From Acrocarpospora macrocephala (lineage in GTDB: Bacteria > Actinomycetota > Actinomycetes > Streptosporangiales > Streptosporangiaceae): a stretch of DNA of 64,000 nucleotides. Below are positions 38,188 to 58,714 of this stretch, one piece after another (positions within the stretch are counted from its first letter, which is position 1; each line of letters opens with the position of its first letter). The translations under genes were made by a program, and so were the position numbers. Location of the stretch: positions 1-64,000 of the forward strand of contig NZ_BLAE01000028.1 in the NCBI RefSeq assembly GCF_009687865.1, given 5' to 3'. The notes under the pieces are model-generated. The model saw nothing but the letters and a program-made list of their open reading frames with translations, had not been told where the DNA came from and ran no database searches.

Positions 38188-38209
38188 TTGGTCAGGCCAA
38201 ATCTTGACA
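38188..38209 (+). promoter_or_regulatory. Operator copy 1 of the FadR-type regulon, with -35 box
   Basis: TTGGTCAGGCCAA (38188-38200) is followed after 3 bases by TTGACA (38204-38209). The same operator with the same TTGAC spacing occurs at 42640, and a variant lies at 42553. Symmetry and size fit a GntR/FadR dimer. It lies about 80 bases ahead of the solute-binding protein gene. Confidence 0.8.
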
Positions 38210-38290: not shown

Positions 38291-39325
38291 ATGCGTCGTT
38301 GGACAATCATAGCGGCAGGCGTCCTCTTCATCCTCCCCACCGCCTGCGCCACAGAAGAGACATCAACGGGAACTGGTAAGACCACTATCGGCATGGTGAC
38401 GCAAGCGTGGGACAACCCCGCGATCAAGGACATGGCCGATGCCGCCATCGCGCAGGCCGGTAAGCACGCCGATGTGGAATTGCTGGCCCAGGACAGCGCC
38501 AACATGCAGGACATGATCAGCAAGGTGCAGACCATGATCTCGCGTAAGGTCGACGCCCTCGGCATCGAGCCGTGGGACAAGCAGCAGATCATGCCGATGC
38601 TTCAGCAGGCCAAGCAGGCGAACATCCCGGTCTTCATCCTCCAGTCGGAGGTACCCGGCACCGACGGCAACGGCCTGGTCGTCTCCTCGCTCATCGGAAA
38701 CGAGACCGAGGGCGGGAAGGTCGCCGGCCGGTGGCTCGGCGAGCAGCTCGGCGGATCCGGCCGCGTTCTCGTGCTGGAGGGGGCCCCGGCGGATACGCCG
38801 GGGATCGAGCGGGCGAACGGTTTCGAGCAGGGCCTGGCCGAGACCGCGCCGGACGCCAAGGTGGTCGCCCGCCAGCCCGCCGACTGGGCACGGGACAAGG
38901 CCCTGCGGGTGACGACGGACCTGCTCACCGCCAACTCCGACATCGATGCCATCTTCGCCGACAACGACGAGATGGCGTTCGGAGCGCTGTCCGCCCTGCG
39001 TGCCCGCAAGCTGGCGGACAAGGTGACCCTCATCGGCTACAACGGCACGTGCATCGGCCTGCAGGCGACCTACCAGGGAACCTTCGCCGCCGACGGGGTC
39101 CTGTTCCTGGACCTGATCGGGGCCGAGTTCATCGACGCGTCCCTGGCCACCATCAAGGGCGAGAAGGTTCCCGCCAAGATCGAGCCGCCCATCACGCTGC
39201 TGACGACCGCGCACCTCAAGGAGATCGAGCAGGGCGCGACGAGCGTGACGGTGAACGGCAAGCCGTTCGAGGTGGACGACCTGCTCCGGGCGCGGGTCAC
39301 CAAGGCCATCTCGGGCACGTGCTGA
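38291..39325 (+). CDS. Rbs-type ABC transporter solute-binding lipoprotein
   Basis: A 344-residue periplasmic-binding-protein-like lipoprotein. The lipobox is LPTAC (Cys 19), and the mature fold is type I (RbsB-like): TIGMVTQAWDNPAIKDMAD, KVDALGIEPWDKQQIMPML, DAIFADNDEMAFGALSALR. It captures a sugar-like or nucleoside-like ligand. The ligand cannot be read from sequence; its regulon suggests an N-containing ring compound or a nucleoside derivative. GGAGA lies upstream of ATG 38291. The stop overlaps the ATPase start (TGATG). Confidence 0.93.
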   Translation: MRRWTIIAAGVLFILPTACATEETSTGTGKTTIGMVTQAWDNPAIKDMADAAIAQAGKHADVELLAQDSANMQDMISKVQTMISRKVDALGIEPWDKQQIMPMLQQAKQANIPVFILQSEVPGTDGNGLVVSSLIGNETEGGKVAGRWLGEQLGGSGRVLVLEGAPADTPGIERANGFEQGLAETAPDAKVVARQPADWARDKALRVTTDLLTANSDIDAIFADNDEMAFGALSALRARKLADKVTLIGYNGTCIGLQATYQGTFAADGVLFLDLIGAEFIDASLATIKGEKVPAKIEPPITLLTTAHLKEIEQGATSVTVNGKPFEVDDLLRARVTKAISGTC

Positions 39326-40866
39326 TGACAGCGGCGACACTCCTCAACGCCGTCGAGGTCAGCAAGACGTACTCCAGTGTCAGGGCGCTGGACAGGGTGA
39401 GCTTCACCCTCGAGCCGGGTGAGATCCACGCCCTGGTCGGGGAGAACGGAGCCGGCAAGTCGACCCTCATCAAGGTGCTGACCGGCGTGCATTCCCCCGA
39501 CCCCGACGGGGGGCGGCTGGAAGTCAACGGCGAGCAGACGGTCCTGCGCAATCCGCTGCACGCGGAGAAGCTCGGCATCTACGCCATCCACCAGCACCTG
39601 CCGCTGGTGGACGGGCTGAGCATCCTGGAGAACTTCCTGCTGGGCAAGTCCCGGGCGGCGCAGCGCACGACGCGGTGGGGGATGCTCGACCGGCGCGGCG
39701 CCAGGCCCATCGTGGCGGAGGCGCTGGCGCTGATGGGGCTGGACTTCGACGTGACGACGCCGATCTCCGCGCTGTCGGTGCCCGAAGCCCAGCTGGTGCA
39801 GATCGCCCGCGCGCTGGCCACCGACGCCAAGGTGCTGATTCTCGACGAACCCACGGCCTCGCTGACCGCGGCCGACCGTGACGCCCTGTTCGACCGCCTG
39901 CGGGACATGCGCGAGCGCGGCGTGGGGCTGGTCTACGTCAGCCACCGCCTGGACGAGATCACCACGCTGTGCGACCGGGCCACGGTGCTACGCAACGGCG
40001 CGGTCGTGGAACGGCTCGGCAAGGCGAACCTGGACGTGGGCTCCATGATCGCCGCGATGCTGGACCGGCCGGTCCAGGCGATGTACCCGCCGACGGCGGA
40101 GCCCTCCGGCGAGGCGCCGATGCTCACGCTCTCGGACGCTGTGGTCGGCACCGCGCCTCCGCTCTCGCTGAAGGTCCGGGCCGGTGAGGTCCTGGGCCTC
40201 ACCGGCCTGGTCGGCGCCGGGATGGTGGAGGCCGCGGAGACCCTGGCCGGCGTGCGTCCACTCGCCCGCGGCCGACTGACCGTCGAGGGCAGGCGGATCC
40301 GCGTCTCCTCCCCCGCGCAGGCGATGCGCGAAGGGATCAGCCTCGTCCCGGAGGACCGATCGCACGCCCTGGTGGCCGGGATGAGCATCGAGCGCAACCT
40401 CGCGCTGACGATCGCGGCCTGCCCGGCCGTGCGGGATTCGATCCGCGGCGCCGGCACGGTGCTGCGGCGCCAGCGGGTACGGCGGGCGGCGCTGAAGGCG
40501 ATCGGCGACTTCAACATCCAGCCAGGGGATCCGGCGGCGCCCGTGGGCGGGCTCAGCGGCGGCAACCAGCAGAAGGTGGTCATCGCGAAGGCGGTGGCGA
40601 CCCGTCCGAAGGTGCTCATCCTGATCGAGCCGACGGCGGGCGTGGACGTCGGCGCGCGGGCGGAGATCTATGCGATCCTGCGCGAACTGGGCCGCACGGG
40701 CGTGGCCGTGATCCTGGTCAGCTCGGACGGCCAGGAGATCTGCGGCATGAGCGACCGGGTGCTCGTCTTCCGTCGCGGTACGGTGGTCGCCGAACTGCCC
40801 CGCGGGACGGACGAAAAGGAGATCATGCTGCATGCGACAACCTCCTCCGTGCATCCCGCAGTCTGA
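39325..40866 (+). CDS. Rbs-type ABC transporter ATPase (two nucleotide-binding domains)
   Basis: A 513-residue dual ATPase. Domain 1 is complete: GENGAGKSTLIKVLTG, LSVPEAQLVQIARAL, VLILDEPTASLT. Domain 2 shows GLVGAGMVEAAETLAG in place of a classical P-loop (common in RbsA-type proteins) and LSGGNQQKVVIAKAVA. Its Walker B reads VLILIEPTAGVD, with Ile where the family has Asp. Hydrolysis is probably confined to the first site. It energises the permease encoded at 42733. Confidence 0.93.
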   Translation: MTAATLLNAVEVSKTYSSVRALDRVSFTLEPGEIHALVGENGAGKSTLIKVLTGVHSPDPDGGRLEVNGEQTVLRNPLHAEKLGIYAIHQHLPLVDGLSILENFLLGKSRAAQRTTRWGMLDRRGARPIVAEALALMGLDFDVTTPISALSVPEAQLVQIARALATDAKVLILDEPTASLTAADRDALFDRLRDMRERGVGLVYVSHRLDEITTLCDRATVLRNGAVVERLGKANLDVGSMIAAMLDRPVQAMYPPTAEPSGEAPMLTLSDAVVGTAPPLSLKVRAGEVLGLTGLVGAGMVEAAETLAGVRPLARGRLTVEGRRIRVSSPAQAMREGISLVPEDRSHALVAGMSIERNLALTIAACPAVRDSIRGAGTVLRRQRVRRAALKAIGDFNIQPGDPAAPVGGLSGGNQQKVVIAKAVATRPKVLILIEPTAGVDVGARAEIYAILRELGRTGVAVILVSSDGQEICGMSDRVLVFRRGTVVAELPRGTDEKEIMLHATTSSVHPAV

Positions 40867-41599
40867 TGCCGTGACGGCGCCCCCTCCTCGCCTCTCACAT
40901 CCGCACCGGGCCTCCGGTAGCGTGAAGACCGTGTCGGGCCCTCTCCACGACGTGAAAGAGCATGTCGTCAACCTGATTCTGAACGGCGAGCTCTCCCCTG
41001 GAGACGCGCTGCCTGCCGAGCGGGAGCTCGCGACCCGGCTGGGGGTCTCCCGGCCGCTGGTCCGCGAGGCGCTGCGGAGCCTGGAGGCCGTCAACATCGT
41101 CGAGTCCCGGCGCGGCGCGGGCACCTACGTCACGGATCTGAGCCCGGAGTTCCTCCTGGCTCCGCTGAGCTACGCGTTCCGGCTGGTTCGCGGTTCGGAG
41201 ATCGACCTGTTCGAGGTGCGGCGCTTTCTCGAACCGCAGGCCGCGGCGATGGCGGCGATGCACCTGCCGGAGGACGATCTCAGCGAGCTCGACCAGTTGC
41301 TCGACGAGCTGGACGCCTCCGACCAGCGCACCTTCCCCGAGCTCGACATCGCCTTCCATGAGTGGATCGTGCGCCGCACGAACAACCGCCTGCTGCTCAG
41401 CGTGATCCGCGGCATCCGCGATCTGGAGTATCAGGTGCTCGCGGTGACCGCGACCAGCGCCGAGTCCCGGCTGCTGTCCGGCGTCGAGCACAGGACGATC
41501 GCCTCGGCCATCCGGGCACGTGATCCGGAGCGGGCGAAGGCGGCCATGCTGCTGCACCTGGCCCGGGTGGAAGACCAGTTCCGCCCAGGTAAAGCCTGA
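40832..41599 (+). CDS. GntR/FadR-subfamily transcriptional regulator
   Basis: A 255-residue regulator. A GntR winged helix (about 35-105: LPAERELATRLGVSRPLVRE) is joined to a helical FCD domain (about 110-250), with Asp/His metal-ligand candidates in ELDIAFHEWIVRRTNN and EHRTIASAIRARDPE. FCD regulators bind small organic acids or related ligands. ATG 40832 is supported by AAGGAGA and overlaps the ATPase gene by 35 bases. It is the obvious owner of the three palindromic operators in this region and probably represses the catabolic genes until the substrate appears. Confidence 0.92.
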   Translation: MRQPPPCIPQSDAVTAPPPRLSHPHRASGSVKTVSGPLHDVKEHVVNLILNGELSPGDALPAERELATRLGVSRPLVREALRSLEAVNIVESRRGAGTYVTDLSPEFLLAPLSYAFRLVRGSEIDLFEVRRFLEPQAAAMAAMHLPEDDLSELDQLLDELDASDQRTFPELDIAFHEWIVRRTNNRLLLSVIRGIRDLEYQVLAVTATSAESRLLSGVEHRTIASAIRARDPERAKAAMLLHLARVEDQFRPGKA

Positions 41600-41615
41600 G
41601 AAACGCCACCCACGC

Positions 41616-41645
41616 CAGGCCGGTCGCGAACCCGCGACCGGCCTG
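41616..41645. terminator. Strong hairpin terminator
   Basis: Perfect 13-bp arms (41616-41628 / 41633-41645) with a 4-base loop lie between the convergent FadR regulator and FAD-subunit genes. Confidence 0.85.
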
Positions 41646-41667
41646 AAGCGTCCTGGTCAGACCGCCG

Positions 41668-41723
41668 GTCCCTGGCCATCAGTCCCTGGCCATCAGTCCC
41701 TGGCCATCAGTCCCTGGCCATGG
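41668..41723. repeat. Four 14-bp tandem repeats over the stop of the FAD-subunit gene
   Basis: The unit GTCCCTGGCCATCA is repeated at 41668, 41682 and 41696, with a variant at 41710. The copy at 41696 contains the stop codon (41707-41709) of the FAD-subunit gene, and the downstream copies duplicate its last codons. Slippage product. Confidence 0.9.
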
Positions 41724-42537
41724 CGGCGGCCCGCAGCACCATCGCGGCGAGCAGGCGGATCTTGGCCCGGTCCGCGACTCCCGCCTGCTCCGCGTCCCGT
41801 GAGACGGCTCGCCTGAGTGTCTCGGCGTCGGCCGCCGGGTCCGCGGCCAGAGCCGACTCGGTCTCCGCGGCCCGGAACGGCCGGTCCGCCGCGCCGAACG
41901 CGACAACGCGCGGGCGTCCGCCGGGCGGCAGCAGGCAGGCGGCCCCGGCCTCGGCGAAGTCACCGTGCCGCTGCGCGAACTCGCGGAAACCCCAGCGCGT
42001 GCCCGGCGGGGGGATCTCCAGGGAGAGCCGTACCAGGATCTCGTCCTCTTCCAGCGCGGTGGACATGTATCCCCAGAAGAAGTCCGCCGCGTCCACGGTG
42101 CGAGAACCGGTGGCCGAGCGGACCTCGAGGCGGGCGTCCGCCAGGAGCATGGCGGCGGGCATCTCCGCCGACGGGTCCGCGTGGACCACGCTTCCTCCGA
42201 CGGTGCCCCGGTTGCGGATCTGGTCGTGGCCCACCCAGGTCGCCGCGTGGGCGAGCAGGGGCCAGTCGCGCCGTACCAGGCTGGAGGAGGCGACGGTCGC
42301 GGTGGTCACCATGGCGCCCAGGGACAGGTGGGAGCCGGTCACCTCCATCGAGGTGAGTTCCGCCACCCCGCCCAGGTCGATCAGCACCGGCGGCCGGACC
42401 AACCGGAAGTTCATCATCGGGATCAGGCTCTGGCCTCCGGCGATCACCTTGCCGCCGTCCGCGGCGGCCTCGGCCAGCAGGGTCGCGGCTTCGTCGAGCC
42501 CGGTGGGGGCGTAGTACTCCATCATCGCGGGTTTCAC
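41707..42537 (-). CDS. Molybdenum hydroxylase FAD-binding subunit (CoxM/XDH FAD type)
   Basis: A 276-residue flavoprotein subunit. FAD-binding motifs are VIAGGQSLIPMMNFRLVRP and RNRGTVGGSVVHADPSAE, followed by a CO-dehydrogenase-flavoprotein C-terminal domain. It should pair with the [2Fe-2S] and Mo subunits encoded at 49909 and 50387, although it is separate and divergent. GTG 42537 is chosen because GGAGG lies 5 bases upstream. Transcription crosses operator copy 3, tying it to the same regulator. Confidence 0.92.
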   Translation of the reverse strand: MKPAMMEYYAPTGLDEAATLLAEAAADGGKVIAGGQSLIPMMNFRLVRPPVLIDLGGVAELTSMEVTGSHLSLGAMVTTATVASSSLVRRDWPLLAHAATWVGHDQIRNRGTVGGSVVHADPSAEMPAAMLLADARLEVRSATGSRTVDAADFFWGYMSTALEEDEILVRLSLEIPPPGTRWGFREFAQRHGDFAEAGAACLLPPGGRPRVVAFGAADRPFRAAETESALAADPAADAETLRRAVSRDAEQAGVADRAKIRLLAAMVLRAAAMARD

Positions 42538-42552
42538 GGCGACCTCCAACAT

Positions 42553-42608
42553 CTGGACTGACCAGTTTCTCGCTGGCTAAGGATAGATTCCCTGATGAAG
42601 ACCTGCAA
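42553..42608 (-). promoter_or_regulatory. Promoter of the FAD-subunit gene with operator copy 3
   Basis: On the minus strand TTGCAG (42603-42608) and TATCCT (42580-42585) are spaced by exactly 17 bases. The operator variant CTGGTCAGTCCAG (42553-42565) lies downstream of the start point, where a bound repressor would block elongation. Confidence 0.75.
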
Positions 42609-42639
42609 GATTCCGAACACTATCGCCATTCACTAAGGA

Positions 42640-42662
42640 TTGGTCAGGCCAATCGCTTGACT
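42640..42662 (+). promoter_or_regulatory. Operator copy 2 of the FadR-type regulon
   Basis: TTGGTCAGGCCAA (42640-42652) is identical to copy 1 and is followed after 4 bases by TTGACT (42657-42662). It controls the permease and, by position, the catabolic genes behind it. Confidence 0.8.
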
Positions 42663-42732
42663 GGTTTCGATGGTTTCTGCCAGGCTTCCTGGCATTCCCC
42701 TTGGTTCGACCCTCGGAAGGGCAGGAGGGCAC

Positions 42733-43761
42733 GTGAAAACCCAACAGGCGCCGGGCGCGCACACGCGGGCTCCGGCACCGCCGGCCGGGCGCGCCGGCCG
42801 GATTCTGCGCGGCGCGCGATCCTCGGTCGGCGGAACGGCGGCGGCCCTGATCATCATCTGGATCGGCCTCACGGCGGCCGCGCCGAGTTTCGCCACCGTG
42901 TCGAACCTGCTGAACATCTTCCTGGCCGCCTCGACCCTGGCGATCATCGCCGGCGGGCTGACCCTGGCGCTCATCGCCGGGGAGATCGACCTGTCCCTCG
43001 GGTCGGTGGAGGCACTGGCCGGATCCCTGGCCGCCGTCCTCATCGTGACCATCGGGCTGCCCTGGCCGCTCGCCCTGGTGCTCGGCGTGCTGGCCGGGGC
43101 CGCGGTCGGCGGGGTGAACGCGTTCTTCACCAGCAAGCTGGGCGTGCCCTCGTTCGTCACCTCCCTGGCCATGCTCAGCGTGGCGGGCGGCGCGGCCTAC
43201 CTGCTCACGCAGGGCACCTCGGTGTTCGGGCTGGGACCCCAGTTCGGCGCGATCGGGCAGGGCAGCCTGTCCGGCGTCCCCGCGCCGGTCCTGATCGCCG
43301 TGGTGATCCTGGCGGTGCTCGCCTTCGTCCTGCACCGCACCTCGTTCGGCCTGAACATCTACGCCGTCGGCGGCAACCCGGAGGCGGCCCGGCTGTCGGG
43401 GGTGAACGTCCGGCGTACCAAAGCGGTCGTGCTCGTGCTCAGCGGGAGCCTCGCCGGCGTCGCGGGCATCATCCTCGCCTCCCGGCTCGACGCCGGCTCG
43501 GGAACCGTCGGGGCGGCCGACCTCATGGCGGCGATCGCCGCGGTCGTGATCGGCGGCACGTCGCTCAACGGCGGGGTCGGCAGCATCGCCGGGACGGTCG
43601 TCGGAACCGTCCTGATCGCCAGCATCCAGAACGGGCTGGTGCTGCTGAACGTCACGGCCTTCTGGCAGCAGGTGGCGATCGGTTCGCTGATCCTCATCGC
43701 CGCGCTGCTCGACCGTCTTTCCAAGATCAGTACTAAGTCGGGTCGGGAGCAGGCGAGGTGA
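42733..43761 (+). CDS. Rbs-type ABC transporter permease
   Basis: A 342-residue permease with about 9-10 helices. RbsC-type signatures: LTLALIAGEIDLSLGSVEAL and the EAA-like loop GGNPEAARLSGVNVRRTK. It works with the binding protein and ATPase encoded at 38291 and 39325, although it is physically separated from them by the regulator and the FAD-subunit gene. GTG 42733 follows AGGAGGG. The group II intron begins just after its stop codon. Confidence 0.93.
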   Translation: MKTQQAPGAHTRAPAPPAGRAGRILRGARSSVGGTAAALIIIWIGLTAAAPSFATVSNLLNIFLAASTLAIIAGGLTLALIAGEIDLSLGSVEALAGSLAAVLIVTIGLPWPLALVLGVLAGAAVGGVNAFFTSKLGVPSFVTSLAMLSVAGGAAYLLTQGTSVFGLGPQFGAIGQGSLSGVPAPVLIAVVILAVLAFVLHRTSFGLNIYAVGGNPEAARLSGVNVRRTKAVVLVLSGSLAGVAGIILASRLDAGSGTVGAADLMAAIAAVVIGGTSLNGGVGSIAGTVVGTVLIASIQNGLVLLNVTAFWQQVAIGSLILIAALLDRLSKISTKSGREQAR

Positions 43762-43870
43762 TGATGTCTGACGGTAGGGCCCAGGGCCTTTGTTCCGCCG
43801 GTTTCCCGGTCGGCTGTGCCATCCCCGGTGACCGTGGCCAGGTCACTCCTTCTCCTGCTCCCGCCACTTC

Positions 43871-43903
43871 GAACTGGGCGTGCGGTTCTCCCGCACCCAG
43901 CTC
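43871..43903 (-). ncRNA. Group II intron domain V
   Basis: A 33-base hairpin begins GAGC (containing the catalytic AGC triad) with a GAGA-type tip and ends GTTC. It overlaps the maturase stop by two bases. Domain VI should follow at 43800-43868, where CCGG-GAAA-CCGG forms a small stem. Confidence 0.85.
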
Positions 43904-45287
43904 ACCGACGCCGTTCACCGGCAGCATGCGGTTTCTCCCGCCAGGGCTTGTTGGCTCTGGGCGGGACGACGATTCCAGACATGTTGATCAGGCCGCACCG
44001 ATCAGGCGACCGGTAGGCGACCACGTTCAGGCCGAATTGCCTGCCGCGTTTGTGCCGCTTGCCGATGAAGATCGCCAGCCGATCGGTCACGAAGTCCCTG
44101 ATCTTGTCGAAACGCAGGGTGGAGTGCCCGTACTTGAAGTACGCAAGCCAGCCGCGCAGGAAGTCGTTGAGGTCCTGCACCACCGCTTCGACGCTCAGCA
44201 GCAGCCGGGACCGGATGGTGAGCTCCCGAATCCGCTCTCGTGCCCGCCGCATCGCCTTGTCGCTGGGCCAGCGAGCCAGGAAGTAGACCCGTTTGGCGCC
44301 GCGCAGCCCCTTCGCCCGCACCATCTTGTGGTGGAAGCCGAGGAAATCAAAACCGTCCTCGCCTTCCCGCAGGCAGATGATGCGGGTCTTGGCCTCCTTC
44401 GGCTCCAGACCGAGGTCGGCCAGCAGCCGCCGCAGCCGCGCCAGCGCGTCTTCGGCCTGCTGCCGGGATTTGCACATCACCACGAGGTCATCGGCGAACC
44501 GGATGATCACACCATGCTCGCGTTCGTCCCATACCCGGTCAATCCGGTGCAGGTAGACGTTGCAGAGCAAGGGGCTGATCGGACCGCCTTGAGCGGCTCC
44601 GGTCACCTCACGCCGGACCTGCCCGTCGGCCATCACTCCAGCGCGCAGAATCTGCCGCAGGAGCTTCAGGACGCTCTGGTCCACGACGCGTTCCTCGATC
44701 GCTTGCATCAACCTCTCGTGCGGGATCGCCGAAAAGCAGTCGGCGATGTCCGTCTCGACCACCCACCGGCGGCCCTTCCACGCCTCATCGATGACGACTT
44801 GGAGAGCATCATGCGTGCTGCGTTTCGGGCGGAACCCGAAACTGCACGGCAGGAAATCCGCCTCGAAGACCGGTTCAAGCACGATCTTCAACGCGGCCTG
44901 CACGATCCGGTCCCGAACCGTCGAGATCGCCAGCAGCCGATACCCATCCTTCGACCCCGGCTTGGGGATCAGCACCCCACGCGCGGGCGAAGGACGGTAC
45001 CGGCCCTCTCGCAGTTCGGCGGCCGGCTCATCGAGCAGACGCCGCACGCCATACTCCTCGACCTGGTCCAGGGTGGTCTGGTCGATGCCGGGAACGCCGT
45101 TGTTGACGCGCACCGCGACCCAGCCACGCCACAGGACGTCCCCGCGGAGGACTTTGTCCATGAGCGTGTGAAACCGTCGTCCGGGATCGGCCTTGGCCGT
45201 CCGGTAAAGCGTGTGCTGCAGGGCACGCACCTTGTCCCGGGGAACTCCCGGAATGGCGGGACTAGCCGACGAGTCGGCACTCACCAA
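43902..45287 (-). CDS. ltrA: Group II intron reverse transcriptase/maturase
   Basis: A 461-residue intron-encoded protein. RT blocks are visible: RPSPARGVLIPKPGSKDGYR, LPCSFGFRPKRSTHDAL, VVETDIADCFSAIPH, GAAQGGPISPLLCNVYL and the catalytic IIRFADDLVVMC (FADD in place of YADD). The maturase X domain covers about 300-400 (LNDFLRGWLAYFKYGHS). The tail SPDRCGLINMSGIVVPPRAN lacks an HNH endonuclease, so mobility would depend on replication forks or single strands. Frame is intact. Confidence 0.95.
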   Translation of the reverse strand: MVSADSSASPAIPGVPRDKVRALQHTLYRTAKADPGRRFHTLMDKVLRGDVLWRGWVAVRVNNGVPGIDQTTLDQVEEYGVRRLLDEPAAELREGRYRPSPARGVLIPKPGSKDGYRLLAISTVRDRIVQAALKIVLEPVFEADFLPCSFGFRPKRSTHDALQVVIDEAWKGRRWVVETDIADCFSAIPHERLMQAIEERVVDQSVLKLLRQILRAGVMADGQVRREVTGAAQGGPISPLLCNVYLHRIDRVWDEREHGVIIRFADDLVVMCKSRQQAEDALARLRRLLADLGLEPKEAKTRIICLREGEDGFDFLGFHHKMVRAKGLRGAKRVYFLARWPSDKAMRRARERIRELTIRSRLLLSVEAVVQDLNDFLRGWLAYFKYGHSTLRFDKIRDFVTDRLAIFIGKRHKRGRQFGLNVVAYRSPDRCGLINMSGIVVPPRANKPWREKPHAAGERRR

Positions 45288-45883
45288 GCACCTCCAACCA
45301 CCTCACCACGCATCGACGAAGCAGGGGCCCTTCCCTCACCGCCGGTTATGTTGTCCGGTCGGCTCAAGCAGTACTACGGCCCCCTCCGACTCCCTTCCGG
45401 CCGGCTTCCACTTCCCGAGTTCATCGGTTATAGGTCACCACGCTCCGATGACAATTTCCGCAGGTCATCGGGCCGGGGAGGGTCTCTCCAGTTCCCGCCG
45501 CCACTATCTGCACGTTCCGAGCCCCTTACGCCGAGGGATCCATCACGGCTGCACCTTCAGGATCTTCACCGCTTCCATGGCCTTCGCCCTTCTCCTCCGG
45601 GCTCGGCATCCCCACGTCCCGCCCTCACAGGCAGGTGCCATAACGACGCGGCAGGCTTCACTTCACGTTACGGACCGCACAGTTGCACGCCCCCTCAAGA
45701 GACGCTCGACGCTGGGCTTCGACCCCGCCCGTTTCCAGACGACGCCGCCAGCCTGCTACCGGGCTCCCTGACGACTACCCGGACCGGACTTCCACCGGCA
45801 AGCGACGACGAGCTTACGCAACCGATCGTCAACCACTCATTCGATCAACCACCAATCACTACTGGACGCACAGGAGTCACCGC

Positions 45884-47299: not shown

Positions 47300-47311
47300 G
47301 CGGGTGGTGAC

Positions 47312-48175
47312 GTGGCCAGCGAACGCATGCTGACGGCGGCGCAGGTGCCCGCCGGAGGCGTCGACGCCGACGCGATCGACGCCATCCACCTGGCGGCGGG
47401 CCGGCACGACCTGATCGTGTTCCCTGAAATGGCGAACGTCCCCTACTTCCCGGTGGCCCCCGGCCTGCACGAATGGCTCGCCGACACCTTGGCCGGCCAG
47501 GACGAGGAGAGCCTGCTCTCCCCCTACCGCCGCCTCGCGCGGCGTACGGGCAGCTACGTCGTCGCCGGCCTGTGCCTGCCGGGTCCTGACCTCACCCGCA
47601 ACGCGGCGGTCGTCTTCGACCGGGCCGGGGAGCTGCTTCCCGGCCGAGGCCTGCTGTCCGGCGAGGTGACACTCAGCTATGACAAGACCCACCTGTGCAA
47701 CGTCCGCCACTACGGTTCGGTCTTCCTCGAGGATCACTATTTCCGGGCGGGCCCCGAACTGGTGGTCTGGGACCTCGACTTCGCCCGGATGGGCGTGCTC
47801 ATCTGCTACGACCGGCACTTCCCCGAGGCATGGTCGACGCTGCGCGCGAACGATGTCGGCATCGTCGCCGTGCCCACGGCCTCACCGGCGGGGACGGCGC
47901 CGACCTTCCTCGCCGAGATGCAGGCGATGACGCTGCAGCAGTCGGTGTACGCCGTCGTGGCGAACCGCGCAGGACCGGAATCACTGCCGGGGATCTGGAC
48001 TACCGAATACCTGGGGCAGTCGGCCGTGTTCGGCCCCGACGGGTCCGTTCTGAACGTGGCCGGCGACGGCCTCTTCGAGCAGGCCCGCGCCCCGTACGAC
48101 ACGGCGGCCCTCGACTCCGTCCGCGCGGCGATGGGGCTGGCCACGAGCCGGCGCCCCGCCTTGTACCAGATCTGA
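47312..48175 (+). CDS. Nitrilase-superfamily amidohydrolase, probably N-carbamoyl-amino acid hydrolase
   Basis: A 287-residue carbon-nitrogen hydrolase. The catalytic Glu-Lys-Cys triad is in LIVFPEMANV, TLSYDKTHLCN and GVLICYDRHFPEAW. Branches of this family include beta-ureidopropionase and D-carbamoylase, which hydrolyse the products of hydantoinases. Twelve bases separate it from the preceding gene, so they are co-transcribed. Other amide substrates are possible. Confidence 0.9.
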   Translation: MASERMLTAAQVPAGGVDADAIDAIHLAAGRHDLIVFPEMANVPYFPVAPGLHEWLADTLAGQDEESLLSPYRRLARRTGSYVVAGLCLPGPDLTRNAAVVFDRAGELLPGRGLLSGEVTLSYDKTHLCNVRHYGSVFLEDHYFRAGPELVVWDLDFARMGVLICYDRHFPEAWSTLRANDVGIVAVPTASPAGTAPTFLAEMQAMTLQQSVYAVVANRAGPESLPGIWTTEYLGQSAVFGPDGSVLNVAGDGLFEQARAPYDTAALDSVRAAMGLATSRRPALYQI

Positions 48176-48204
48176 TCCCGTCCATTGAATCTAGGAGAGC
48201 TCAC

Positions 48205-49887
48205 GTGAGACGAGTGGCCGATGCCGTCGCCGAGACCCTGCGGGCCCAGGAGATCGATGTCTTCTTCATGCTGACCGGCGGCGACCCCGCGCTGTGGACC
48301 GCCCTTCAGCGCCAGGGCATCAGGATGATCCCCTGCCGGAGCGAGCAGGGCGCGGCCTACATGGCCGACGGCTATGCCAGGATGACCGGCCGCCCCACCT
48401 TCGTCTACGGCCAGCACGGCCCGGGGTCGGCCAACATCTCCTCGGCGCTCGCGGACGCGTACTGGGCGATGAGCCCGGTCGTCTCCCTGACCAGCTCGGT
48501 GCCGGCGGCGACCCGCGACCGCCACGAGTACCAGCTGCTGGACCAGCTGGCGATGCACCGCCCGGTGACCCACTGGGCCGGGGAGGCGCTCCGCGGCTCC
48601 CACGTGCGATCGATGCTGCTGCGCGCCATGCACGAGGCCACCAGCGCGCCCGGCCCCGCGCACCTGGACATCCCGCGCGACGTGCTGGCCGAGCCGCTGG
48701 AGGACGGCGGCACGCCGGACGCCCCGGCGGCCACGCTGCGGGCCCCGCAGTACCGGACGGCTCCCGCGCCGGAGGCGGTCAAGGCGATCGTGGCGCGCCT
48801 GTCCGGCGCACGCCGAGTCGTGATCATGGCAGGGTCCGGTTCCCGGGTCTCGGGGGCCGACCCCGAGGTGCGGCTGCTGGCCGAGGCCCTGCGGGCGCCG
48901 GTCGTCACCTCCATCGGCGGCAAGGCGTCCATCAGCGAGGCGCACCCGCTCGCGGTGGGCGTGGTGGGCCGCTACGCGGCCGGGGTGGCCAACGACGTCG
49001 TGGACGAGGCCGACCTGGTGCTCGTGCTCGGCAGCCGGTTGGGCAGTGTGACCAGCGACTCCTTCACGATGTTCGCCTCCGCGGACCTCATCAGGGTCGA
49101 CACCCGCTCGGACGCGCTGGACCCGTCAGCGGCCCTCAACGTGCTGGCGGACGTGAAGCTCACCGCCCAGGCCCTGCTCTCCGAGCTCGGCGCCGACCCG
49201 GGGGCCGCGCGGGACACCGCGTGGGTGGCCTCGGTGAGCGAGCGGGTCGCCGGGTGGCGCGAGAACGCGCTCAAGGTGCCCTCCACGGGAGGCGAGTCCG
49301 GGCAGATGCACCCCCGCGAGGTGGTGTCCGCGCTGTCCGAGTCGCTCGCACCCAGCGACGTCGTGGTCGCCGACACCGGCTACATGGCGGCCTGGGCCGG
49401 AGTCCTCTACCAGGCGCGTGCGGCGGGAACCACCTTCCTGCGGGCCGCGGGCTCGCTCGGCTGGGCGATCCCCGGAGCGCTCGGCGCCCAGCTGGCGGCG
49501 CCGGAGCGCCGGGTCGTCTGCGTCACCGGTGACGGCGGGACCGGATACAACATCGCCGAGCTGGAGACCGCGGTACGGGTGGGCATCCCGGTCACGATCG
49601 TGGTGGTCAACAACGGCACCCTGGCCTTCGAGTACCACCTGCAGAAATACGTGGAGAAGAACGTCATCCCCGAGATCAACGACTTCTCCGACGTCGACTA
49701 CGGAGCCGTCGCGCGCTCGCTGGGCGCGGCAGGCGTGCTGGTACGTTCCAAAGGCGAGCTGGATGACGCGCTGGCGACCGCGGCGCGGAGCGAGGCTCCC
49801 ACGCTGATCGACGCCCGCGTCGACCGGGAGGCGATCGCCCCCGTCACCTCGTACGCGAATCAGGGCATCGACCCGTCCGCTCTCTGA
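48205..49887 (+). CDS. Thiamine diphosphate-dependent enzyme (acetolactate synthase-like)
   Basis: A 560-residue enzyme with three ThDP domains. The catalytic Glu is in CRSEQGAAYMADGYAR, and the cofactor motif runs from GDGGTGYNIAELETAV to VNNGTLAFEYH. The central domain (about 185-320) is Rossmann-like but lacks a clear FAD signature. The family covers acetolactate synthase, glyoxylate carboligase, benzoylformate decarboxylase and IolD-type hydrolases; which reaction occurs here cannot be assigned. It would handle a 2-oxo acid or semialdehyde. GTG 48205 has AGGAGAG upstream. Confidence 0.88.
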   Translation: MRRVADAVAETLRAQEIDVFFMLTGGDPALWTALQRQGIRMIPCRSEQGAAYMADGYARMTGRPTFVYGQHGPGSANISSALADAYWAMSPVVSLTSSVPAATRDRHEYQLLDQLAMHRPVTHWAGEALRGSHVRSMLLRAMHEATSAPGPAHLDIPRDVLAEPLEDGGTPDAPAATLRAPQYRTAPAPEAVKAIVARLSGARRVVIMAGSGSRVSGADPEVRLLAEALRAPVVTSIGGKASISEAHPLAVGVVGRYAAGVANDVVDEADLVLVLGSRLGSVTSDSFTMFASADLIRVDTRSDALDPSAALNVLADVKLTAQALLSELGADPGAARDTAWVASVSERVAGWRENALKVPSTGGESGQMHPREVVSALSESLAPSDVVVADTGYMAAWAGVLYQARAAGTTFLRAAGSLGWAIPGALGAQLAAPERRVVCVTGDGGTGYNIAELETAVRVGIPVTIVVVNNGTLAFEYHLQKYVEKNVIPEINDFSDVDYGAVARSLGAAGVLVRSKGELDDALATAARSEAPTLIDARVDREAIAPVTSYANQGIDPSAL

Positions 49888-49908
49888 TCTGTGCCAAGGA
49901 GGCCGCCG

Positions 49909-50397
49909 ATGCCTTACGTCCGGACCACCGTCAACGGCCAGCCGGTCGAGCGCGAGGTGGAAGCTCGCCTGCTGCTGTCCGATTTTCTCCGCCACGAGCT
50001 GGACCTGACCGGCACGCACGTCGGTTGCGAGCACGGTGTCTGCGGCGCCTGCACCGTGCTCGTCGACGACCGGCCGGTACGGGCCTGCCTGATGCTCGCC
50101 GTGCAGGCGAACGGCAAGCCGGTGCGGACCGTGGAGTCCCTGGCCGAGCCGGGGCAGCCGCTCTCCCGCGTGCAGGCGGCCTTCAAGCGCAACCACGCCC
50201 TGCAGTGCGGGTTCTGCACCCCGGGAATCCTCATGTCGCTCACCGCGGTGCTGGAGGAGGAGGGACCTGTTTCGAAGGAGCGGGCCGTCGACGCCCTTCG
50301 CGGGCACCTGTGCCGGTGCACGGGCTACCGCAACATCATGACCGCGATCGACGAGATCTGCGCGGAGCCGAAGGAGGTGGGAGGCGGTGCCGGGTAA
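49909..50397 (+). CDS. Molybdenum hydroxylase [2Fe-2S] subunit
   Basis: A 162-residue subunit with two iron-sulfur domains. The plant-ferredoxin-like cluster uses CEHGVCGACTVLVDDRPVRAC. The helical domain uses CGFCTPG and CRCTGY. It relays electrons between the Mo centre and the FAD subunit. ATG 49909 with AAGGAGG upstream is preferred over GTG 49891. It overlaps the Mo-subunit gene by 11 bases. Confidence 0.96.
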   Translation: MPYVRTTVNGQPVEREVEARLLLSDFLRHELDLTGTHVGCEHGVCGACTVLVDDRPVRACLMLAVQANGKPVRTVESLAEPGQPLSRVQAAFKRNHALQCGFCTPGILMSLTAVLEEEGPVSKERAVDALRGHLCRCTGYRNIMTAIDEICAEPKEVGGGAG

Positions 50398-52741
50398 CGT
50401 GGGGCGGCGGATGCCGCGGCTGGAGGACGACCGGCTGCTGCGCGGGAACGGGATGTATCTCGACGACATCCACCTGTCGGGCTCGCTGCACGCGCACGTC
50501 GTCCGCAGCATGCACGCGAACGCGCGGATCGCCGGCATCGACGTCGAAGGCGCCCGGCGGGCGCCGGGGGTGCGGCTGGTCCTGACCGGCCACGACCTCG
50601 GCGACCTCAACGGCCCGCTACCGCTGCTGGGCCCGCACCCCAGCCTGCTGGCGCCGCGCACCCAGCGGCCGCTCGCGGTCGACCGCGTCCGGTACGTGGG
50701 CGAGGCCATCGTCATGATCGTCGCCGAGGACCGCTACCTCGCCGAGGACGCGGCGGACCTGGTCCAGATCGACTACGAGCCGCTGCCGGAGGTCGTCGAG
50801 TTCGACGACGCCCGGCGCGGCGACCGGTTCGTGCACGACGACATCGCCGACAACGTGGCCGCCGTCGTGTCGCAGGTCAGGGGTGATCCCGAAGAGGTGA
50901 TCAGGTCCGCGCCGCACACCCTCGCGCTGAGCCTGGACATCGAGCGCAGCTGCGGCAGCCCGCTGGAGGGCCGCGGCGTGCTCGCCGACTGGGATCCGCG
51001 CCGGCAGAAGCTGACCGTGTTCGATTCGACCCAGTCACCGGTCGCGATCCGCCAGGGGCTCAGCCGGATCCTGGACGTGCCGCTGGACCGGCTGGAGGTC
51101 TCCGCGCCCGACGTCGGCGGCGGGTTCGGAACCAAGATCATGCTGTTCTACCCGGAGGAAGTGCTCGTTCCCTACGCCGCGCTGCGGTTGAGCCGGCCGG
51201 TGAAGTGGACCGAGGACCGCTGGGAGCATTTCATCAGCGCCAACCAGGAGCGGGGACAGCACCACGAGGCCGTCGTGGCGTTCGACGACAACGGGCGGAT
51301 CCTGGCGGTAAGCACCGATTTCGATCACGACACCGGCGCCTACGTTCCGTACGGGATCGCCGTACCAGCCGTTACGGGAACACACCTGCCCGGACAGTAC
51401 GACATCGAGCACTACCGCTACAGCGGCCGGGTGCTCTACACCAACAAGCCGCCGGTGAGCCCCTACCGGGGCGCCGGCCGGCCGCAGGGCGTCTTCGTCA
51501 TGGAGCGCCTGATCGGGGCGGTCGCCAAGCGGCTGGGCACGGAGCCGTGGCGGGTGCGCCGCGCCAACCTCATCCCGTCCAGCGCATTCCCGTACGACAC
51601 GGGGCTTGAGCTGCACGACCGCAGCCGGGCGATCTACGACAGCGGCAGCTACGTCGAGGGCTTCGACCGGATGCTCTCGCACGTCGACGTCGAGGCGTTC
51701 CGGGAGCGGCAGCGCGCGACGCGAGCCGAGGGCCGCCACCTCGGGCTGGGCATGGCCACCTATGTCGAGGGCACCGGTGTCGGCCCCTACGAGGGATGCG
51801 CCGCGACGCTGAACAGCAGCGGGCGGATCGTGCTGGAGGTGTCCGTCCCGTCCCAGGGACAGGGCCATGCCACCACCTTCGCCCAGATCGCCGCGGACGT
51901 CATCGGCTGCGCGGCCGAGCAGGTTCACGTGGTCACGGCGGCGGGAGGCCCCACCGCGGTCGGCCACGGCACGTTCGGCAGCCGGGCCGCGGTGATGAGC
52001 GGCAACGCGGTCGCCGCCGCCGCCCACGCGCTGCGGGCGAAGATCCTCGCGGCCGCGTCAGTGCTGCTCGAATGCTCCGCGGAAGACCTGGAGACCAGGG
52101 ACGGGAACGTCTTCGTGCGCGGTGCCGAGAACGCCCGGGTGAGCCTGGCCGACATCGCGAGCGGCGCCAACCCCATCCAGTACCCCGGCACGGACAGACC
52201 CACCCCCTGGGTCTCCCGGGAGCCCGGCTCCGACGCGCCGGTCTCGCTGTCGGCCACCGAGTACTTCCGCAGCGGTCAGTGGGTGTTCGGCAGCGGGGCC
52301 CACGGCGTGATGGTGGAGGTCGATCCGGGCACGGGACGGGTCACCATCGACCAGTACGTCGTCGTCCACGACTGCGGGCGGGTCATCAACCCGCTGGTCG
52401 TGGACGGCCAGGTGGTCGGCGGGCTGATCCAGGGCATCGGGGGCGCGCTGCTGGAGCGGCTGACCTTCGCCGACAACGGCCAGCCCACCACCACCAGCTT
52501 CCTCAACTTCCACCTGCCGACCGTCGACGACCTGCCCCCGCTGGTCCTCGATCACCTGGAGACCCCCTCCCCGTGGAACCCGCTCGGGATCAAGGGCACG
52601 GGAGAGGCGGGCATCATCCCGGTCGCGGCGGCGATCGCCGAGGCCATCGAGGACGCGCTGTCCCCGTTCGAGGTCCCCGTCACCTCGATGCCACTCTTCC
52701 CGGCGGACATCCGCACCGCTATCGATAGGACTGAGCCATGA
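50387..52741 (+). CDS. Molybdenum hydroxylase catalytic (molybdopterin) subunit, xanthine dehydrogenase family
   Basis: A 784-residue catalytic subunit. Mo-cofactor contacts: VGGGFGTKIMLFYPEE, YRGAGRPQG, a GQGHATTFAQIAAD loop, and the catalytic Glu in KGTGEAGIIPVAAAI. The active-site loop lacks the Ser-selanylcysteine motif (AYxCSFR) of true CO dehydrogenase, so it is a hydroxylase of an organic ring or aldehyde. The cofactor would be MCD-type. It starts with GTG within the preceding gene and is coupled to the next gene by ATGA. Confidence 0.95.
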   Translation: MPGNVGRRMPRLEDDRLLRGNGMYLDDIHLSGSLHAHVVRSMHANARIAGIDVEGARRAPGVRLVLTGHDLGDLNGPLPLLGPHPSLLAPRTQRPLAVDRVRYVGEAIVMIVAEDRYLAEDAADLVQIDYEPLPEVVEFDDARRGDRFVHDDIADNVAAVVSQVRGDPEEVIRSAPHTLALSLDIERSCGSPLEGRGVLADWDPRRQKLTVFDSTQSPVAIRQGLSRILDVPLDRLEVSAPDVGGGFGTKIMLFYPEEVLVPYAALRLSRPVKWTEDRWEHFISANQERGQHHEAVVAFDDNGRILAVSTDFDHDTGAYVPYGIAVPAVTGTHLPGQYDIEHYRYSGRVLYTNKPPVSPYRGAGRPQGVFVMERLIGAVAKRLGTEPWRVRRANLIPSSAFPYDTGLELHDRSRAIYDSGSYVEGFDRMLSHVDVEAFRERQRATRAEGRHLGLGMATYVEGTGVGPYEGCAATLNSSGRIVLEVSVPSQGQGHATTFAQIAADVIGCAAEQVHVVTAAGGPTAVGHGTFGSRAAVMSGNAVAAAAHALRAKILAAASVLLECSAEDLETRDGNVFVRGAENARVSLADIASGANPIQYPGTDRPTPWVSREPGSDAPVSLSATEYFRSGQWVFGSGAHGVMVEVDPGTGRVTIDQYVVVHDCGRVINPLVVDGQVVGGLIQGIGGALLERLTFADNGQPTTTSFLNFHLPTVDDLPPLVLDHLETPSPWNPLGIKGTGEAGIIPVAAAIAEAIEDALSPFEVPVTSMPLFPADIRTAIDRTEP

Positions 52742-53397
52742 ATCTCGAACATAGTTTCGACATCTTGGCGGAGCCGGATGTCGCCTTCGCCTACCTGATG
52801 GACGTGAACCGGGTGGCGACCTGCGTACCGGGCGTGAGCCTGCAGGAAGAGCTGGGCGAGAACACCTACCGGGGCACCCTGAAGGTCAAGGTCGGTCCCG
52901 TCACCGTGACGTACGGCGGCATCGCCCGCATCATCTCGGCGGATCCGGTCACCAGGGTCGCCGCGATCGAGGCGGAGGGCGAGGAGAGCGGCGCCGCCGG
53001 GTCGGTTCGCGCCAAGGCCACGATGTCGGTGGTGCCGGCGGCCACCGGATCGCGCGTCACCGTGAGCACGGACCTCGCGCTCACCGGTCGCGTCGCCACC
53101 ATGGGCAAGGGAGTGATCGAGCAGGTCGGCAACCGGATGGTGGCCCAGACCTCCCAGCGGATCGAGCAGGCCATCCTGGAGTCGGTCGCGAGTTCTCCGG
53201 CGGTGGACGTCACCGGCCCGCTCGCCACCGGCAGTGCGCCTCCCGCCCGGCCGGAAGCCGCCGGGGACGGATCGGCGCTGCGGGTGATGCCGTTGCTGGG
53301 ATCCCTCATCGCCGACTGGGTCCGCCGGACCTTCGGAAAGATCTTTGGTGCTCGCCGGAACCGCGCGAGCCGCACCACTCCCGGGGAGCGGAAATGA
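52738..53397 (+). CDS. CoxG-like SRPBCC protein
   Basis: A 219-residue protein. Residues 1-150 form the SRPBCC fold of the CoxG family (FDILAEPDVAFAYLMDVNRV, ATCVPGVSLQEE, GTLKVKVGPVTVTYGG). The C-terminal tail is variable, ending in a hydrophobic/basic segment (VMPLLGSLIADWVRRTFGK) that could touch the membrane. CoxG-type proteins accompany molybdenum hydroxylases and have been linked to membrane anchoring or menaquinone delivery. ATGA overlaps flank both ends, so it is tightly coupled. Confidence 0.92.
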   Translation: MNLEHSFDILAEPDVAFAYLMDVNRVATCVPGVSLQEELGENTYRGTLKVKVGPVTVTYGGIARIISADPVTRVAAIEAEGEESGAAGSVRAKATMSVVPAATGSRVTVSTDLALTGRVATMGKGVIEQVGNRMVAQTSQRIEQAILESVASSPAVDVTGPLATGSAPPARPEAAGDGSALRVMPLLGSLIADWVRRTFGKIFGARRNRASRTTPGERK

Positions 53398-54884
53398 CGC
53401 ACACGACGCACTGGATCGACGGCAGGCCGTGGGGCGGCGCCGGCGAACGGCGCGGCGAGGTTTTCGACCCCGCGACGGGTCAGGTGACGGGACGCGTCGA
53501 CCTCGCATCCCCCGCCGAGGTGGACGAAGCCGTCGCCGCGGCGGCCGGCGCCTTCCACGCGTGGCGCGAGGTGTCGCTGACCAGGCGCACGCAGGTGATG
53601 TTCGCCTTCCGGGAGTTGCTCAACGCCCGCAAGGAGGAGCTGGCCGCGATCATCACCGCCGAGCACGGCAAGGTCCTCGCCGACGCCCTGGGCGAGGTGA
53701 CCCGCGGGCTGGAAGTGGCGGAGTTCGCCTGTGGCATCCCTCACCTGCTCAAGGGCGGTTTCTCGGAGAACGTCTCGACGAGGGTGGATTCGTACTCGAT
53801 CCGCCAGCCGCTCGGCGTCGTGGCCGTGATCTCTCCGTTCAACTTTCCTGCCATGGTGCCGATGTGGTTCCTTCCTGTCGCCATCGCCGCCGGCAACACC
53901 GTCGTGCTCAAGCCCAGCGAGAAAACCCCCGGCGCGGCCGATTTCATGGCCGCGCTCTGGAGTGAGGCGGGGCTGCCCGACGGCGTGCTCAACGTCGTGC
54001 ACGGCGACAAAGCGGCGGTGGACCGGCTGCTCGACCACCCCGACGTCGAAGCCGTCTCGTTCGTGGGTTCGACGCCGATCGCGAAATACGTCTACGAGCG
54101 GGGCACCCGGGCCGGCAAGCGGGTCCAGGCGCTCGGTGGCGCGAAGAACCACATGGTGGTGCTCCCCGACGCCGACCTCGACCTGGCCGCCGACGCCGCG
54201 ATCAACGCCGGCTTCGGGTCGGCGGGAGAGCGGTGCATGGCGATCTCCGCGCTGGTGATCGTCGAGCCGGTGGCCGACGCGCTCATCGCCAAGATCGTCG
54301 AGCGGATGGCGCGGCTGCGGATCGGCGACGGCCGGCACGGCTGCGACATGGGGCCGCTGGTCACCCTGGCACACCGCGACCGGGTGGCCTCCTACCTCGA
54401 CGCGGGCGTGGAGGCAGGAGCGGAACTCGTGGTGGACGGCCGCAAGCAGGGCATCGACGGCGACGAGCGGGGTTTCTGGCTCGGCCCGACGCTGTTCGAC
54501 GGGGTCACCGCGGAGATGCCGCTCTACACCGACGAGATCTTCGGGCCGGTGCTCTCCGTGCTGCGGGTGCCGACGTACGAGGCGGCGCTCGACCTGGTGA
54601 ACGGCAACCCATACGGCAACGGCACCGCGATCTTCACCAGGGACGGCGGCGCGGCCCGGCGTTTCCAGCACGAAGTCGAGGTCGGCATGGTCGGGATAAA
54701 CGTGCCCATTCCCGTGCCGATGGCCTACTACTCGTTCGGCGGCTGGAAGCAGTCGTTGTTCGGTGACTCCCATGCGCACGGCACTGAGGGCGTGCACTTC
54801 TTCACCCGCGGCAAGGTCGTGACCTCCCGATGGCCCGACCCGAGCCACGGCGGAATCAACCTCGGCTTCCCCACCCAGGACTGA
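53394..54884 (+). CDS. mmsA: CoA-acylating methylmalonate-semialdehyde dehydrogenase
   Basis: A 496-residue aldehyde dehydrogenase of the MMSDH type, which makes propionyl-CoA or acetyl-CoA from methylmalonate or malonate semialdehyde. The catalytic Cys is in GSAGERCMAIS, the NAD region is VISPFNFPAMVPMWFLP, and the MMSDH hallmark NGNPYGNGTAIFTRDG is present. As last gene in the operon it would feed the product into central metabolism. That fits a beta-amino acid route (pyrimidine degradation) or an inositol-like route. No beta-alanine aminotransferase was seen nearby. Confidence 0.94.
   Translation: MTHTTHWIDGRPWGGAGERRGEVFDPATGQVTGRVDLASPAEVDEAVAAAAGAFHAWREVSLTRRTQVMFAFRELLNARKEELAAIITAEHGKVLADALGEVTRGLEVAEFACGIPHLLKGGFSENVSTRVDSYSIRQPLGVVAVISPFNFPAMVPMWFLPVAIAAGNTVVLKPSEKTPGAADFMAALWSEAGLPDGVLNVVHGDKAAVDRLLDHPDVEAVSFVGSTPIAKYVYERGTRAGKRVQALGGAKNHMVVLPDADLDLAADAAINAGFGSAGERCMAISALVIVEPVADALIAKIVERMARLRIGDGRHGCDMGPLVTLAHRDRVASYLDAGVEAGAELVVDGRKQGIDGDERGFWLGPTLFDGVTAEMPLYTDEIFGPVLSVLRVPTYEAALDLVNGNPYGNGTAIFTRDGGAARRFQHEVEVGMVGINVPIPVPMAYYSFGGWKQSLFGDSHAHGTEGVHFFTRGKVVTSRWPDPSHGGINLGFPTQD

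Positions 54885-57123: not shown

Positions 57124-58714
<1,591 letters not shown>

Follow-up and report, generated by a model that had tools for sequence, protein, structure and literature searches.

The reductive route of pyrimidine catabolism employs dihydropyrimidine dehydrogenase, dihydropyrimidinase and beta-ureidopropionase, and the barbiturate route ends in malonate and urea. Lumichrome catabolism in Nocardioides simplex unites pyrimidine-ring opening, urea hydrolysis, thiamine diphosphate (ThDP)-dependent decarboxylation and a xanthine-oxidase-like step within one gene cluster (PMC12746152). The hyuA/xdh/ygeW region of E. coli and the purine modules constitute a different gene set (PMC4016543). 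Here, a 64-kb window (the whole stretch of DNA analyzed) was examined from the 12.1 Mb, 166-contig draft genome of Acrocarpospora macrocephala, which is 98.64% complete. An earlier reading of this window, hereafter the original prediction, had proposed a probably undescribed catabolic system for an N-heterocycle. All the families it named, from an Rbs-type importer to a coenzyme A (CoA)-acylating semialdehyde dehydrogenase, were located within positions 38291-54884; a GntR/FCD regulator and a group II intron, which it had left unmentioned, complete the inventory. The protein assignments in the resulting twelve-gene set are by homology, and we tentatively read the set, with slightly less than even confidence, as a single GntR-controlled regulon for the uptake and complete oxidation of one nucleobase-like N-heterocycle. 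The observed basis of this reading comprises gene content, conserved gene order, selection on the proteins, a shared operator and residue changes, from which we infer every reaction, the reaction order, the substrate class and that the GntR protein binds the operator.

The set begins on the plus strand with genes for an Rbs-like (CUT2) substrate-binding protein (38291-39325, family match), an AraG/RbsA-like ABC importer ATPase with two ABC_tran stretches (39325-40866, the start being the nearest ATG upstream of the domain) and the GntR/FCD transcriptional regulator, the probable regulator of the set (40832-41599, with a start that may be later). These are followed by the flavin adenine dinucleotide (FAD) subunit of a molybdenum (Mo) hydroxylase, encoded on the minus strand (41707-42552, FAD_binding_5), divergent from the permease operon and apart from the genes for the other two subunits, then by the importer permease (42670-43761, plus strand) and by the minus-strand intron. 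After the intron, all on the plus strand, come genes for a cyclic amidohydrolase of the hydantoinase/dihydropyrimidinase fold with altered substrate residues (45884-47299), a CN hydrolase, probably an N-carbamoyl hydrolase (47312-48175), an acetolactate-synthase-like, single-chain ThDP-dependent enzyme (48205-49887, the GTG start at 48205 having been picked from the Saccharopolyspora spinosa alignment), the 2Fe-2S subunit (49891-50397, family match) and Mo-cofactor large subunit (50387-52741) of the hydroxylase, a CoxG-like protein (52738-53397, family match) and a CoA-acylating (methyl)malonate-semialdehyde dehydrogenase (53394-54884). The conserved gene set includes neither a reductase nor an aminotransferase.

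Five genomes from two actinomycete families, the window included, carry these genes with order and orientation unchanged, and in all five the FAD gene lies on the opposite strand. This degree of conservation is more than chance, and it bears out the claim of a coherent catabolic set, the order of whose steps we infer. The comparative search in other actinomycetes that the original prediction had suggested recovered the set in A. pleiomorpha NBRC 16267, which encodes all 12 genes (89-99% amino acid identity, with 96.7-98.1% DNA identity across the four main aligned blocks of 34676-54916), in S. spinosa, which encodes 11 of them in the same order (45-73% amino acid identity), and in two further members of the S. 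spinosa family, G1107 and G914, with the gene order of the window. A scan of 84,980 species genomes yielded at least 591 stretches, of which the best 80 were examined; several lie on short contigs, and more copies may exist. The other cluster genes were also present in two of these 80 loci (A. pleiomorpha and S. spinosa), as judged within the DNA stretch retrieved around each locus. Orthologs of the ThDP enzyme were identified in 3 of 390 genomes of the S. spinosa family (S. spinosa, G1107 and G914), in two of the five genus genomes (A. macrocephala and A. pleiomorpha) and in A. macrocephala alone among 394 genomes of its class, while the two matches among 396 genomes of the phylum were its own and a second-tier match of 495 bits; the amidohydrolase was detected in one of 296 genomes, again its own. 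The presence of the set is patchy but its gene order is kept, which suggests that one functional unit has spread horizontally. Ratios of nonsynonymous to synonymous substitution rates (dN/dS) range from 0.11 to 0.39 against A. pleiomorpha (12 genes) and from 0.23 to 0.49 against S. spinosa (11 genes), and the aligned frames of all these genes are free of stop codons.

The imperfect palindrome TTGGTCAGGCCAA occurs in identical form upstream of the binding-protein gene (38188-38208, plus strand, with 3 nt separating it from a -35-like TTGAC) and upstream of the permease/enzyme operon (42640-42661, plus strand, with 4 nt before TTGAC), and the variant CTGGTCAGTCCAG lies immediately upstream of the FAD-subunit gene (42553-42565, minus strand). 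The pattern combining TTGGTCAGGCCAA with TTGAC at a 3- or 4-nt spacing matched twice in the window and not once in 100 shuffles. A search of the 12.1 Mb genome with the 3-nt-spacer form returned no further site with fewer than two mismatches; at up to three mismatches, 24 sites were obtained versus 48 for the reversed control. In A. pleiomorpha, the TTGGTCAGGCCAA site upstream of the binding-protein gene is also present and the FAD-gene variant is identical. Counterparts of the FAD and permease sites occupy the same places, with one or two mismatches, in S. spinosa, G1107 and G914 (C/TTGGTCAGTCCAA upstream of the FAD gene and TCGGTAAGGCCAA followed by TTGAC at the permease), and in these three genomes the binding-protein gene is preceded by TTGGTATGACAAG, TCTG and TTGAC, where TTGGTATGACAAG differs from the window 13-mer in at least four positions, depending on the strand, and shares its start and its TTGAC neighbor. 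Since the operator is common to the importer, the permease/enzyme operon and, as a variant, the FAD gene, the genes look like one GntR regulon, in which the GntR protein would bind the operator. S. spinosa is an organism grown in industry; there, operator, regulator and binding protein constitute a testable regulon that could lead to the substrate quickly.

The binding protein is RbsB-like, scoring 157.6 bits against PRK10653 (cut-off 337). Of the ribose contacts of RbsB, it keeps N13, R141 and N190 and lacks D89, R90, D215 and Q235, and these four are replaced in both the window and the S. spinosa proteins. Ribose import was rejected on account of the four changed contacts.

The amidohydrolase scores 452.2 bits against TIGR02033, over the cut-off of 393.25, in a scan against NCBIfam of which the best 25 of 65 matches were considered, and alignments indicate that it retains H68, H70, K161, H193, H249 and D325, the metal ligands (HxH, Lys, His, His and Asp). 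Two residues that bind the substrate in dihydropyrimidinases, a Tyr (KVFMAY) and an Asn (IPNG), are present in all five solved enzymes aligned and are changed to Val (KVFGAV) and Ala (IPAG) in all five genomes carrying the cluster. A standard dihydropyrimidinase was rejected because of these two changes. The hydantoinase-like ring opener of the original prediction thus stands as regards fold, TIGR02033 membership and metal ligands, but not as a standard dihydropyrimidinase, and proteins above the cut-off of the dihydropyrimidinase model may be something else. The CN hydrolase retains its Glu, Lys and Cys (E39, K125 and C165) and is nearest, weakly, to N-carbamoyl hydrolases (63.7 bits). The TIGR02033 score would also suit an operon for hydantoin or dihydropyrimidine salvage that has unrelated Mo and ThDP enzymes beside it, and a Klebsiella plasmid likewise groups a GntR regulator, an ABC importer, a CN hydrolase (32% identity) and an amidohydrolase, the last without a BLAST match to the window enzyme. 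We regard this salvage explanation as rather improbable, given that the substrate residues are changed in all five genomes while a paralog in the same genome (L125) keeps Tyr and Asn (TYRG, PNG), and that the genes keep their order and a common operator. The paralog itself (L125/L138, G000:C64:106456-107766) is a separate dihydropyrimidinase-like gene, the neighbors of which look like a peptide-type ABC transporter.

For the Mo subunit, the closest solved structure is quinoline 2-oxidoreductase (461.9 bits), and the protein carries hydroxylase signatures (PYRGAGRP, KGTGEAG), not those of CO dehydrogenase; against NF040766 it scores 904.7 bits, below the cut-off of 950. A CO dehydrogenase was rejected because the active-site loop reads SPYRGAGRP instead of AYRCSFR, the Cys-containing loop of the aerobic enzyme. 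In a tree of 39 Mo subunits, the sequences from the window, A. pleiomorpha, S. spinosa and an actinomycete genome designated G051 constitute one clade with support of 1.000, apart from a widespread type, and in a survey of the class, where 60 of 296 genomes had a match at 1e-190, only A. macrocephala itself and G051 exceeded 1000 bits. Neighbors were compared for nine other Mo loci; among the 30 Mo loci of the class survey, the comparison covered G051, G215 and the paralog of A. macrocephala. Homologs of PucR and of NCS2 permeases adjoin Mo subunit kin (41-49% identity) in five of the nine (L117, L155, L156, L188 and L189). These five are actinomycete neighborhoods in which PucR, NCS2 permease and the FAD, iron-sulfur (FeS) and Mo subunits of a hydroxylase are grouped, L188 lying in the A. 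macrocephala genome itself (contig C50); the one in Embleya (L117) also has an AtzD-type amidohydrolase and a carbamate kinase some 7-10 kb from the hydroxylase, and its NCS2 permease has RutG as best match, below the cut-off.

Such neighborhoods, with the NCS2 permeases beside Mo kin and the Embleya genes nearby, are what an oxidative pyrimidine (barbiturate-type) route might lead one to expect, with a hydantoinase-like enzyme replacing barbiturase and the ThDP enzyme and dehydrogenase acting on a side product. We consider this very unlikely, however, because the route has no use for a ThDP enzyme and because no AtzD-type enzyme is found in the cluster. The exclusion of the barbiturase route by the original prediction agrees with the absence of an AtzD/barbiturase-type amidohydrolase among the matches listed for the cluster proteins, no genome-wide search having been made. 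Its exclusion of the reductive pyrimidine route and of the Rut route was likewise upheld across the draft genome, where the best scores were 117.2 bits for dihydropyrimidine dehydrogenase (one model, PreA; cut-off 335) and 100.3 bits for RutA (one model; cut-off 498.3).

The ThDP enzyme shares Glu52 and the GDGG...NN stretch with all 12 aligned relatives. It scores 290.2 bits against the acetolactate synthase model TIGR00118, below the cut-off of 538.35, and its predicted structural model (mean predicted local distance difference test score, pLDDT, 86.3) is about as close to 2-hydroxyacyl-CoA lyase and benzaldehyde lyase as to acetolactate synthase and HKA synthase. A ThDP neighborhood in Bradyrhizobium was set aside as a different setting because its amidohydrolase is only 25% identical. 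In another locus (L039, Actinobacteria bacterium isolate 12), a second-tier ThDP homolog of 43% identity has a FAD/FeS/Mo hydroxylase next to it, together with a FAD monooxygenase, a cyclase-family hydrolase and a short-chain dehydrogenase/reductase, and this is possibly another N-heterocycle pathway. Second-tier relatives of the ThDP enzyme accompanied by tartrate dehydrogenase, PrpD, aldolase, amidase or TRAP/TTT transporters, together with a variant cluster in G051 that has a tartrate dehydrogenase (L187), favor a carbon-acid or sugar-acid operon in which the ureide-type enzymes act on amides and no N-heterocycle is involved. The joint presence of a cyclic amidohydrolase, a CN hydrolase and a Mo hydroxylase and the lack of four ribose contacts in the binding protein argue against such an operon, which we judge highly improbable.

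Under the reading of one regulon for a nucleobase-like N-heterocycle, the CUT2 importer would take in a ligand other than ribose, and the FAD/2Fe-2S/Mo hydroxylase, for which CoxG would be an accessory protein, would convert a ring CH beside N to C=O. The hydantoinase-fold enzyme would then hydrolyze the cyclic ureide or imide so formed, and the carbamoyl group would be released by the CN hydrolase as CO2 and NH3. Because the ring would never have been reduced, the product would be an enamine or imine that needs no aminotransferase to become, by hydrolysis, a 2-oxo acid, which would leave a place for the ThDP enzyme to decarboxylate that acid to a semialdehyde; the semialdehyde dehydrogenase would finally yield an acyl-CoA. 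A more specific version, in which an oxaloacetate-level acid derived, for instance, from a carboxylated pyrimidine is converted to malonate semialdehyde, is a long shot. It is possible, though on balance doubtful, that the cluster represents a third, oxidative route for cyclic ureides, characterized by hydroxylation and opening, never reduction, of the ring, by a 2-oxo (or heteroaryl) acid intermediate, by single-chain ThDP decarboxylation to a semialdehyde convertible to a CoA ester, and by one GntR operator. If true, the cluster would add a way of catabolizing ureide rings in which the ring is not reduced and no transamination is needed, and its ThDP enzyme would be a natural single-chain decarboxylase suited to such chemistry.

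Several observations weigh against the reading of one regulon for a nucleobase-like N-heterocycle. The sequence and fold of the ThDP enzyme fit a decarboxylase, carboligase, lyase or hydrolase alike, and its second-tier relatives (approximately 41-45% identity) occur mostly in acid-catabolism settings (seven loci, with neighbors partly scanned). The nucleobase inference rests on the neighbors of proteins that are 41-49% identical, and four of the nine Mo loci compared (L039, L116, L118 and L187) have no PucR or NCS2 neighbors. The CN hydrolase passes no NCBIfam cut-off. The operator 13-mer with two mismatches is common by itself in the window (7 instances found versus 9.92 expected), unlike the full pattern including TTGAC, which is rare. 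Lastly, the S. spinosa operon ends without a semialdehyde dehydrogenase, a 71% identical homolog of which lies approximately 4 kb upstream with a class III aminotransferase and has no operator site upstream of the gene; a divergent gene at that locus is read as a PucR-type regulator. The window dehydrogenase scores 698.7 bits against TIGR01722 (cut-off 448.5), and its gene directly follows CoxG in three of the five genomes, namely both Acrocarpospora species and G1107 (68.5% identity). In G914, CoxG is followed by one 348-bp stretch of the gene (L200 and L201, approximately 20108-20455), which has the look of a copy in decay. A late accident in Acrocarpospora was rejected given the G1107 gene and the G914 stretch. 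From its place after CoxG in Acrocarpospora and G1107, the fragment in G914 and the upstream homolog in S. spinosa, the dehydrogenase is probably an original but replaceable operon member; its inclusion in the set by the original prediction applies to both Acrocarpospora species and G1107 and does not extend to S. spinosa or, beyond a fragment, to G914.

The original prediction had also stated that the ThDP step has no place in any of the three routes it named; this was not entirely right, as a ThDP step after pyrimidine-ring opening has a precedent in the lumichrome pathway (PMC12746152). A similar logic might operate in the window on a smaller fused ring, such as a pterin, a purine or the like: the amidohydrolase would open a fused pyrimidine-dione, the CN hydrolase would leave an amino-heteroaryl carboxylate, the ThDP enzyme would decarboxylate this heteroaryl acid and the Mo hydroxylase would then oxidize the remaining ring. 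The types of step match those of LumH, LumI, LumK/L and LumJ (PMC12746152), and the replacement of Tyr by Val and of Asn by Ala in the amidohydrolase would be expected to enlarge its pocket. Nevertheless, the ThDP enzyme of the window is one chain of approximately 560 amino acids, whereas LumK and LumL are described as two small subunits, the cluster proteins include no P450, Rieske or catechol dioxygenase, and a semialdehyde dehydrogenase would be unexpected directly after such steps. This alternative thus appears unlikely.

The group II intron (approximately 43737-45871, minus strand, about 2135 nt) scores 102.4 bits against RF02003 (gathering score 49) and carries a reverse transcriptase/maturase open reading frame (43902-45287) with RVT_1 and GIIM domains. 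Its site is empty in A. pleiomorpha, its 5' end reads GTGCG and its ends are exact to 1 nt. The intron replaces the last permease codons, the final seven residues and stop of the permease coming from intron sequence, and it parts an ATGA stop/start overlap kept in the four other genomes; a partial copy on contig C16 consists of three pieces (96.6-100% identity). A group II intron antisense to the operon RNA should not splice from that RNA, and therefore the window strain may express the genes downstream of it poorly. Outside the set, positions 57127-58251 encode a GH10 xylanase with a ricin-type lectin domain, in which the match begins at profile position 71 of 311, so that the catalytic domain appears to lack its N-terminal part.

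The enzyme families in the cluster are all known, and their combination is not. No description of this gene set was found in the open-access literature searched, subscription papers being outside the search, and the papers found there on imidazole/xanthine-hydrolase, orotate and pterin likewise provided no gene cluster. The designation of the system as undescribed is upheld to that extent, and the cluster is best considered a putative undescribed variant of N-heterocycle catabolism. Compared by description, not by Lum sequences, with the lumichrome pathway, it would share hydrolytic opening of a pyrimidine ring (LumH/I/M, together with urea hydrolysis), ThDP decarboxylation (LumK/L) and xanthine-oxidase-like hydroxylation (LumJ), whereas the lumichrome pathway has a two-subunit ThDP enzyme, a single-chain Mo enzyme, a P450, a Rieske enzyme and catechol dioxygenases (PMC12746152), all of them absent from the cluster. 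With reductive pyrimidine catabolism, the cluster has in common the amidohydrolase and CN hydrolase superfamilies and a terminal semialdehyde dehydrogenase, but it has no reductase and no aminotransferase, its substrate residues are changed, and a Mo hydroxylase and a ThDP enzyme are added. The PucR/NCS2 clusters have a homologous three-subunit hydroxylase (41-49% identity), followed in L156 by an annotated CoxG, but differ in belonging to a separate Mo clade (support 1.000) and in having another transporter and another regulator. The variant cluster in G051 (L187, G051:C66:1-20000) has no ThDP or CN hydrolase match within its 20 kb and differs further in having two amidohydrolases of approximately 30% identity, a tartrate dehydrogenase and an acetate/propionate-type CoA ligase; its Mo hydroxylase (60%), CoxG (39%), GntR regulator, CUT2 importer and cyclic amidohydrolases resemble those of the window, and this likeness suggests that such clusters make up a wider family.

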